35,975 nucleotides of DNA from an uncultured cyanobacterium (GTDB lineage Bacteria > Cyanobacteriota > Cyanobacteriia > Thermostichales > Thermostichaceae): NCBI GenBank assembly GCA_937944885.1, contig CALFBB010000026.1, positions 1 through 35,975 on the forward strand, read 5' to 3'. Within the stretch, counting starts at the first letter, position 1, and each line of letters begins with the position of its first letter. The notes beneath the pieces are model-generated. The model saw only the letters and a program-made list of their open reading frames with translations, did no database searches and was not told the origin of the DNA. The translations under genes and the position numbers were made by a program. Shown here one piece after another: positions 12,720-16,018 of the stretch.

Positions 12720-12898
12720 TTAGCTGTAGAAAATACAGCCCTCTCGTCAACCAGTACTATCTCCTGAAAATACGAAGTGTAAACCCCATAGATCCTGTGG
12801 TAACTTTATGTTTATACTTAGAAAATAATTAGAAAATAATAATTTATAATTTATTGCACTGTGAGCAAAACTTGCTCACCATTCCATTGTCCAAGACT
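12720..12898 (+). promoter_or_regulatory. AT-rich leader/promoter region of the photoreceptor kinase gene
   Basis: The 60 bp before 12860 are almost entirely A and T, in sharp contrast to the surroundings. They contain a direct repeat of AGAAAATAAT (12820-12829 and 12831-12840) and a TATAAT hexamer at 12845-12850, 49 nt before the chosen ATG. No clear -35 box is present at the right spacing. An AT-rich activator or UP-like element is possible. Confidence 0.45.
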
Positions 12899-15800
12899 AT
12901 GTCCATGGCTCAGACTTCAGGAGTACCACCATCCCTAGCTCAATTCTTAGAATTGGAGCCTCTTCTGGTCAGCTCCAGCAGCTCTGTTGCTGATGTTATT
13001 TCCCTGTTTGTTCAGAGAAATTCCCCCTTTCGCTACGCTTTAATAAAAGATATAGGCTCAGAGCAGTTGTTGGGTATCTTTACAGCTGGCGATGCTCTGC
13101 GCCAGGTTGCCAGAGGGCAGAAGGGATCCACCTTGGCAGAGGTGATGACGACGCCTGTTGTCACTTTTTCTGTCGGTGACTACCAGGATCCCCTGACGCT
13201 GCTTCGCTTTATGCAGGATCACCAGGTGAGCCATTTGCCTATTGTGGATGAGAGGGGATCCCTACTGGGGGTTGTCAATCGAGAAGATCTCTATCTCAAA
13301 CTGCTGCAAAACCGACAAGTTCAGCCTTCTTCTGTACAAAATGCGGTTGATCGAGCATTGTTCAATTCGGATCAACTGCAGCAGGAAATTCTAGAAAAAG
13401 AACTGCGCACTGCTTTGAATTTTCGCCTCAGTATTGAACGTTCTATTCCCCTGGGCATCGCTGCTGCTGACTTGAGCGGCAAACAGATCTACGTCAACGA
13501 GACCTTTGCTGAGATGGTGGGTTGGCCGAAAGAAGAGCTGATCGGACGGGATCCCCCCTATCCCTATTGGCCGCCGGAAGAGGTGGAGAGCATCTCTGCT
13601 GCCTTTACCCAAGGGCTGAAGCAAGGGCGACCTTTAGAGGGATGGGAACTGACCTTTATGCGCCGCAACGGAGAACGCTTCCCGGTGCGCATTTTGGATG
13701 CCCCCTGGCGAGATGCAGACGGCAACCTGATTGGCATGATTGCCAGTGTGCAGGACATCACCGCTGAGAAAGAAAGCCTATTACAACAGCAAAGGCTCGA
13801 ACAGTCTTTAAAACAACAGGAAGATCTATTTCAAAAGCTCTTCAATCTATCTGGGAACGGTATGGCTATTGCCAATGCGGCAGGGCAGATCGTGAGGGTG
13901 AATGATAGCTTTTGCCAGCTTACGGGCTATACCCACTCCGAGTTGCTCGGCAAGCATTATGAGGAAATTACGCATCCAGAGGATCTGCTCCAAGAAAGAA
14001 CCTACGTGCAAGAAATTGTATCGGGGCAGCGTCAAGGCTACAGGATGGAGAAGCGCTACATCCGCAAAACCGGTGAGAGTGTCTGGGTGGATCTGTCGAG
14101 TTTTATTGTCGATATCCCTGAGCAGGGAATCTTCGGGATTGCATTGGTTACCGACATCAGCCAACAGAAGCAAGTACAGGAACAGCTACAGCATCAATTG
14201 CAGCAAACCCAACTGCTCAGGCACATTACCCAGGGGATCCGTCACTCTCTGGATGTAGAAAGCATCCTCAACTTTACGGTGCAGGAAGTTCGCTGGTTGC
14301 TGAATGTGGATCGGGTGGTGCTCTACCGCTTTTTCCCCAATTGGGCGGGAGAAATTGTGGCAGAATCCGTAAGCCAACCCCAGTTGAGTCTGTTGGGTCA
14401 GGTGATTGAAGACCCCTGCTTCATGAAGGATTGGCACCACACCTATCAGCAGGGCCGCATCTCGGCCATCCCAGACATTCACACCGCACCCATTCAACCC
14501 TGTCATCGGGATCTACTGGCCGGTTTGCAGGTACGCGCCAACTTGGTTGTTCCCATTCTGCAAGGGGATCACCTCTGGGGCCTGTTGATTGCTCACCACT
14601 GTACAGCACCGAGACATTGGGATCCCTGGATGCCCGAATCTCTGAAGCAATTGGCCGATCAACTGGGCTTGGCGCTACAACAGGCGGACCTCTTTGAACG
14701 TCTACAAGCTACCAACACCCAGCTGCGCTACCAAGTGGAGGTGCGCAATGCCGAGCTGCACCAGCTGGTGAGCTACGAACAACTGTTGCGCCTGATCAGC
14801 GATGAGGTACGCTCTAGCCTCGATGAAAAAGAGATTTTGGCCACCGTTGTCCGGGAATTGAGCGGGTTTCTCCAGTTGGGCGCCTGTGGGGTTGCTCTGG
14901 TCGAGCCCACAACTTGTACTTATACTCTGGCTTATGAACAGGTCAGCTCCCTACCGGAGGTAGGTAAGGATATTGCCCTGCCTTTGGAGCCTCAGCTTCT
15001 CCATCAACTGGAGCAAGGCCAAACCCTCCATTTCAGCTTTCATCATCCGCTGCGCGGCTGGTGTACGATCATCGCCTGCCCGTTACTGATAGAACTTGAG
15101 CAACCTGGCACCGATGCTTCCACCTCTGAGCTTGCAGCCAGAACCACCCCTTCACTGTTGGGTTTTCTCGAGTTAATCCGCCTTCCCCAAGAAGGGTTCA
15201 CCCCTGCTGAGATCCGTTTTGCTGAGCAAGTAGCCATCCAATGCAGCATTGCCATTCGTCAAGCCCGCCTTTACCAAACCATTCAGCAGCAGCTGCAGCA
15301 GTTGCAAACCCTAAACCAGTTAAAGGATGAATTCCTACACATGGTCTCCCACGAGCTGCGTACTCCTCTGACGAGCATGAAAATGGCCCTGAAAATGCTG
15401 GAGATAACTAGCATCAATGAGCAACAGAGCCGCTACTTCAACATCCTTAAGCAGGAGTGGCAAAAAGAGCTGGATCTGGTCAACGATCTACTGGACTTGC
15501 AACGGCTGGAGTCGGGGCATCACACCCTTGAGCTGACCTGTGTGGTTCTTCAGGAATGGCTGCAGCAGCTTTTAGAGCCCTTCCTGTTACGCTTTCAAGA
15601 GCGTCAACTCAAGTTCAGTGCCCAGCTTTCTCCCCAACCGGTTACCCTGACTACCGATGCCGGCCTGCTCACCCGTATTCTCAGTGAATTGCTGAACAAT
15701 GCGGTGAAGTATACGCCCAGTGGTGAACAGATTCACCTTTTGGTCTCCACCTCTGGATCCCACCTGTGCCTACAGGTCATCAATACTGGTGCCCAGATTC

Positions 15801-16018
15801 CAGCTGAGCATCTACCCCACATCTTGGAGAAGTTTCATCGAGTTCCCCAGCTGGATCAGACCCAACAGGGAGGTACCGGATTGGGATTATCCCTGGTCAA
15901 AAAGGCCGTGGAGGTGTTGCGGGGCCAGCTGCGGGTGGAAAGCCGAGACAACCGCACTCTTTTTGAGGTTTGCTTACCGGATCTAGCGGCAGAGGGAAAC
16001 TCCCCAAAATCCCTGTAA
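12899..16018 (+). CDS. Hybrid-sensor histidine kinase with DXCF-type cyanobacteriochrome GAF domain
   Basis: The 1039-residue kinase has, in order, a CBS pair (about 13-141), PAS (178-290), PAS (312-421), GAF1 (438-597), GAF2 (627-790), HisKA with the phospho-acceptor H818 in HMVSHELRTPLTSMK, and a HATPase domain (SELLNNAVKYTP; GGTGLGLSLVKKA). GAF1 is bilin-lyase-like: the canonical chromophore cysteine C535 lies in QPCHRDLLAGLQVRANLVVP. A DXCF motif (DPCF, C507) lies 28 residues earlier, the spacing I recall for the blue/green photoreceptor TePixJ. I infer a light-sensing kinase, with nucleotide (CBS) and redox/ligand (PAS) inputs possible. No transmembrane helix is seen, so it is probably soluble. 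No response regulator lies in the window. ATG 12899 (or 12905) is preferred over a TTG at 12854. Confidence 0.93.
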   Translation: MSMAQTSGVPPSLAQFLELEPLLVSSSSSVADVISLFVQRNSPFRYALIKDIGSEQLLGIFTAGDALRQVARGQKGSTLAEVMTTPVVTFSVGDYQDPLTLLRFMQDHQVSHLPIVDERGSLLGVVNREDLYLKLLQNRQVQPSSVQNAVDRALFNSDQLQQEILEKELRTALNFRLSIERSIPLGIAAADLSGKQIYVNETFAEMVGWPKEELIGRDPPYPYWPPEEVESISAAFTQGLKQGRPLEGWELTFMRRNGERFPVRILDAPWRDADGNLIGMIASVQDITAEKESLLQQQRLEQSLKQQEDLFQKLFNLSGNGMAIANAAGQIVRVNDSFCQLTGYTHSELLGKHYEEITHPEDLLQERTYVQEIVSGQRQGYRMEKRYIRKTGESVWVDLSSFIVDIPEQGIFGIALVTDISQQKQVQEQLQHQLQQTQLLRHITQGIRHSLDVESILNFTVQEVRWLLNVDRVVLYRFFPNWAGEIVAESVSQPQLSLLGQVIEDPCFMKDWHHTYQQGRISAIPDIHTAPIQPCHRDLLAGLQVRANLVVPILQGDHLWGLLIAHHCTAPRHWDPWMPESLKQLADQLGLALQQADLFERLQATNTQLRYQVEVRNAELHQLVSYEQLLRLISDEVRSSLDEKEILATVVRELSGFLQLGACGVALVEPTTCTYTLAYEQVSSLPEVGKDIALPLEPQLLHQLEQGQTLHFSFHHPLRGWCTIIACPLLIELEQPGTDASTSELAARTTPSLLGFLELIRLPQEGFTPAEIRFAEQVAIQCSIAIRQARLYQTIQQQLQQLQTLNQLKDEFLHMVSHELRTPLTSMKMALKMLEITSINEQQSRYFNILKQEWQKELDLVNDLLDLQRLESGHHTLELTCVVLQEWLQQLLEPFLLRFQERQLKFSAQLSPQPVTLTTDAGLLTRILSELLNNAVKYTPSGEQIHLLVSTSGSHLCLQVINTGAQIPAEHLPHILEKFHRVPQLDQTQQGGTGLGLSLVKKAVEVLRGQLRVESRDNRTLFEVCLPDLAAEGNSPKSL

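Follow-up and report, generated by a model that had tools for sequence, protein, structure and literature searches.

TePixJ is a chemotaxis-type receptor with a blue/green GAF domain of the DXCF class of cyanobacteriochromes (CBCRs; structures 4fof, 4glq and 3vv4), in which the DXCF cysteine is Cys494 (PMC6955287). PPHK (6oap) is a dual-sensor histidine kinase and resembles the protein described here in having a CBCR GAF domain within a kinase. The SyB-Cph1 group of knotless phytochromes (8w26, 2k2n) shares with it a bilin GAF domain with a Cys-His pair. We compare these systems with a sensor kinase gene found in the window, i.e., the whole stretch of 35,975 nucleotides that was analyzed, which corresponds to contig 26 in the 2.8-Mb genome of an uncultured cyanobacterium. 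In our judgment the gene product is very probably an orphan histidine kinase with several inputs, its light sensor being the first of its two GAF domains (GAF1), a dual-cysteine DXCF cyanobacteriochrome of the TePixJ kind.

The features of the gene are collected in Table 1. The product is counted from the ATG; an in-frame TTG at 12854 is an alternative start that would add 15 residues. In the translated frame, Pfam finds a CBS region, two PAS domains, two GAF stretches, HisKA and HATPase_c, in this order, and the kinase motifs are intact. Pfam reports one CBS stretch at its cutoff (residues 80-132), and a profile built here spans the full pair. The first CBS motif contains GIFTAGD (13073-13093) with T62-x-x-D65, and the second GVVNRED (13268-13288) with N127-x-x-D130. 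The Pfam stretch for GAF1 covers residues 452-593 (14252-14677). The first-pass annotation had placed the start of this domain at 14214, which is off the codon boundary of the kinase frame; translating 14214-14690 gives stops, a trivial slip. No PHY domain is detected by Pfam in the 1039 amino acid kinase, where GAF1 is followed by GAF2 and the kinase domains and forms no PAS-GAF-PHY or GAF-PHY core.

Table 1. Features of the sensor kinase gene (positions are those of the window)
Feature	Position	Strand	Evidence
Whole gene: CBS-CBS-PAS-PAS-GAF1-GAF2-HisKA-HATPase_c sensor histidine kinase, 1039 aa	12899..16018	+	Open frame, Pfam
CBS pair, residues 20-131	12956..13291	+	Pfam PF00571, profile built here, PDB CBS proteins
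PAS1, residues 179-287	13433..13759	+	Pfam
PAS2, residues 320-422	13856..14164	+	Pfam
GAF1, residues 443-603, predicted DXCF-type cyanobacteriochrome photosensor domain	14225..14707	+	PDB sequence matches, tree, predicted structure, fold search
VIEDPCF, DXCF motif; Cys507 = TGC 14417-14419	14402..14422	+	Aligned to TePixJ VIEDPCF
QPCHRDLL, canonical bilin-attachment position; Cys535 = TGT 14501-14503, then His536	14495..14518	+	Translated frame
GAF2, residues 633-796, without Cys-His pair	14795..15286	+	Profile, alignment, tree
HisKA; SHELRTPL intact at 15347-15370	15323..15517	+	Pfam
HATPase_c; N-box NNAVKYTP, G-box GGTGLGL	15656..15979	+	Pfam

The relationship of GAF1 to known photoreceptors was examined by sequence search, phylogeny and predicted fold. 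A phmmer search of the PDB returned CBCRs or CBCR-derived proteins for the first fifteen distinct sequences, with PPHK in the lead (E-value 9e-46); PPHK is also the best PDB match by Foldseek. Whether GAF1 falls inside the cyanobacteriochrome clade had been proposed as a check. With three phytochrome GAFs as the root, a careful tree comprising 69 GAF domains puts it on the CBCR side with support 100/100. The same tree groups GAF1 with its two orthologues (100/100) and places it among dual-cysteine rows, outside a 14-row single-cysteine group that contains PPHK, NpR3784, NpR6012g4, AnPixJg2 and Slr1393g3. PPHK has a Tyr at the position of the DXCF cysteine of GAF1. Because the deep CBCR branches are not settled in this tree, we assign GAF1 to no named DXCF lineage. 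A quick tree with non-bilin GAFs as outgroup, now superseded by the one rooted on phytochromes, had placed around GAF1 a set of 14 rows (support 96), 13 of which are dual-cysteine. The AlphaFold model of GAF1 (mean pLDDT 92.2, pTM 0.88) matches TePixJ in Foldseek (4fof; E-value 1.5e-17) and in VIA (4glq; Z 23.8, rmsd 2.1 over 149 residues). The model superposes on blue-state TePixJ and also on other CBCR and phytochrome GAF structures, so that the fold cannot separate the two classes. A phytochrome identity was set aside on account of the missing PHY domain, which distinguishes the protein from the SyB-Cph1 group, and of the tree, which splits the two 100/100. The genome does encode a close relative of SyB-Cph1 elsewhere (L066).

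The dual-cysteine arrangement described in the first-pass annotation is verified in the translation: the cysteine of DPCF (TGC at 14417) and that of PCHRDLL (TGT at 14501) are Cys507 and Cys535, exactly 28 residues apart. TePixJ has the same spacing, as taken from the phmmer alignment against the PDB. The DXCF motif of GAF1 (Asp505-Pro-Cys507-Phe508) aligns at the position of TePixJ Cys494, and the heptapeptide VIEDPCF is identical in 3vv4. The second GAF domain had been described as having no Cys-His pair, and in fact none of its five cysteines precedes a His. There is no GAF2 residue at the chromophore-cysteine column of the alignment, and the tree places this domain among non-bilin GAFs. 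The DXCF class proposed at the outset thus finds support in motif, alignment, tree and predicted fold, and GAF1 can be regarded as a well-supported predicted addition to the DXCF cyanobacteriochromes, carried by an orphan histidine kinase.

What colors would such a domain sense? We compared eleven positions of the bilin pocket region (the two cysteines, the residue after the second, the Asp, the Phe, beta2, alpha4 and four further residues), which read C,C,H,D,F,I,L,W,D,Y,R in GAF1 and C,C,H,D,F,V,L,W,H,Y,R in TePixJ, the two domains being 42% identical in the structural alignment. The residues that we take to be the beta2 and alpha4 tuning positions were located in the GAF1 alignment via NpR6012g4; they are Ile486 and Leu543, non-Phe at both sites as in TePixJ. 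Phe at beta2 and alpha4 is associated with teal and red/green tuning (PMC5240096). The pocket-region Trp, Tyr and Arg are shared as well, including the counterpart of TePixJ Trp499, which touches a bilin propionate (PMC6955287). Two of the 11 positions differ: beta2 (Ile for Val) and one propionate contact, where His498 of TePixJ is replaced by Asp511. Since the pocket residues match TePixJ and neither beta2 nor alpha4 is Phe, a blue/green photocycle with phycoviolobilin (PVB) is our best guess for GAF1. This prediction stands on residue identity and not on close kinship, because TePixJ sits on a long branch of the careful tree without a supported grouping with GAF1.

GAF1 might instead be a photoactive DXCF cyanobacteriochrome with another photocycle (e.g., blue/orange or blue/teal), either because phycocyanobilin (PCB) is retained or because the tuning is different. 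Isomerization of PCB to PVB occurs in only some DXCF GAFs, and photoproducts from teal to orange are found in the class (PMC5240096); the altered propionate contact would fit such a difference. However, beta2, alpha4 and most of the other compared positions agree with blue/green TePixJ, and we consider this alternative possible, if rather unlikely.

It is improbable that GAF1 fails to bind a bilin, or binds one and is photochemically silent, being retained for its structure. The canonical cysteine is missing from many homologous GAFs of cyanobacterial kinases (69 of the 137 rows gathered here) and also from a GAF of the same genome (L065). Yet Asp505, Phe508, Trp512, Tyr516, Arg520 and both cysteines of GAF1 are all kept in two orthologues that are just 70-76% identical in the domain. 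More improbable still is that Cys507 and Cys535 form a redox or thiol switch and not a bilin linkage pair. Two close pocket cysteines could in principle make a disulfide, but these two occupy the C10 and attachment positions of TePixJ, and the DXCF cysteine follows the bilin cysteine across the family: a cysteine at the DXCF position is present in 51 of the 68 GAFs with the canonical Cys-His/Tyr versus 4 of the 69 without it (Fisher p-value 5e-18, indicative only, as the rows are related and the sample non-random). Finally, regain of a DXCF cysteine has been reported in XRG (red/green) CBCRs (PMC11284453), but an origin of GAF1 in that lineage is scarcely credible, for it has neither the WXDXXL motif nor a Phe at beta2, and the tree keeps it apart from the XRG/NpR3784 group (NpR6012g4, AnPixJg2, Slr1393g3).

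If GAF1 is a blue/green DXCF sensor, the kinase could work as follows. Cys535 most likely carries PCB covalently, and the protein probably isomerizes it to PVB. The same genome contains a heme oxygenase gene (E-value 6e-83) and a PcyA-family gene (PF05996, E-value 3e-81), and PCB should therefore be available. In the dark state Cys507 would form an adduct with the bilin at C10 and the absorption would be in the blue; light would then rotate the D ring and the Cys507 bond would break, giving a green-absorbing state. The change may be relayed via GAF2 and a helical linker to HisKA, where autophosphorylation of the His in SHELRTPL would be altered; the direction of kinase control is something we infer. 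The CBS pair would be modulatory, perhaps by sensing an adenosine nucleotide. No partner response regulator was recognized among the window ORFs scanned. No partner is seen among the neighbors of the kinase gene, which encode an ATP sulfurylase on the upstream side and, on the downstream side, a geranylgeranyl reductase-family protein. A promoter/terminator scan gave nothing above chance expectation.

The N-terminal part of the protein varies among orthologues. In the G001 orthologue (L002), a repeat of approximately 276 bp (G001:C1, about 259959-260234) lies in frame within the first CBS motif and interrupts it. Nine near-full copies (90% or more) of this repeat are present in the G001 genome, that in L002 included, and it is possibly a MITE-like element. 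In a separate deletion, the counterpart of window positions 13196-13548 is gone and the start of the second CBS motif is joined to the middle of PAS1. The frame is still open, and the dual-cysteine GAF1, GAF2 and the kinase are retained. The G005 orthologue (L003, G005:C3; 913 amino acids) keeps the CBS pair and PAS1 and has lost PAS2. It shares with L034 a GAF1 insertion of approximately 9-10 residues, located in the loop before LWGLL and missing from the window protein. The three orthologues, then, all have the photosensor and the kinase and differ in their N-terminal inputs. This pattern suggests a protein built around its photosensor, to which the CBS pair is an optional addition. Because the G001 orthologue has a broken CBS pair and an intact photosensor, the CBS pair seems dispensable and its link to the photosensor loose.

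Is the fusion of a CBS pair to a DXCF GAF unusual? The first-pass annotation had suggested as much. We searched the CBS region against 291 genomes of the class and read the surrounding frames. Many proteins combine a CBS module with a CBCR-type GAF, and at least 14 outside the genus, in addition to the G005 orthologue, combine it with a dual-cysteine GAF; one protein (L005) has a partial CBS module at its cut end. Two of these proteins, L008 and L042, come from other cyanobacterial genera and have exactly the domain order of the window protein by Pfam, CBS-PAS-PAS-GAF(DXCF)-GAF-HK, with a dual-cysteine first GAF and a second GAF without the cysteine. Their first GAFs are about half identical to GAF1, both have Phe at alpha4, L042 has Cys-Tyr, and the careful tree does not place either in a supported close group with the window protein. 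The CBS fusion is not rare, and the claimed oddity fails on comparison with other genomes. When mapped onto the quick tree (71 rows, 20 of them CBS-bearing GAFs), the CBS label has to change at least 15 times, a rough count in a sample selected for CBS; the CBS-GAF association therefore appears to have been often gained and lost. In two different genomes, L155 and L160 have two CBS pairs directly before a dual-cysteine GAF, with no PAS domain seen by eye. We found no description of a CBS-cyanobacteriochrome fusion in the open-access literature, where most CBCR papers from subscription journals are missing.

One could speculate that the CBS pair has an adenosine nucleotide or a similar metabolite as its ligand and gates the control of the kinase by the blue/green photosensor, so that light color and energy state are integrated. 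We regard this as doubtful. If it were true, the CBS-DXCF fusion in several unrelated cyanobacteria could represent a recurrent, uncharacterized design, and the repeated joining of CBS modules to dual-cysteine CBCR proteins offers a testable case of putative light and metabolite integration. The window protein itself adds a likely, predicted blue/green light sensor to a cyanobacterial genus that is probably early-branching and native to hot springs, and GAF1 is perhaps a thermostable DXCF GAF domain that would be useful for photochemistry.

Further CBCR-type GAFs are encoded by the same genome on contigs 23, 3 and 16 (L062, L063, L064 and L065). Two are dual-cysteine (DNCF/PCH and DECF/DCY), one has Cys-Tyr without the DXCF cysteine, and one has neither cysteine. 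Elsewhere in the window, a 333 amino acid frame on the minus strand (956-1957) fuses a 2Fe-2S ferredoxin domain to an adenylate/guanylate cyclase catalytic domain.
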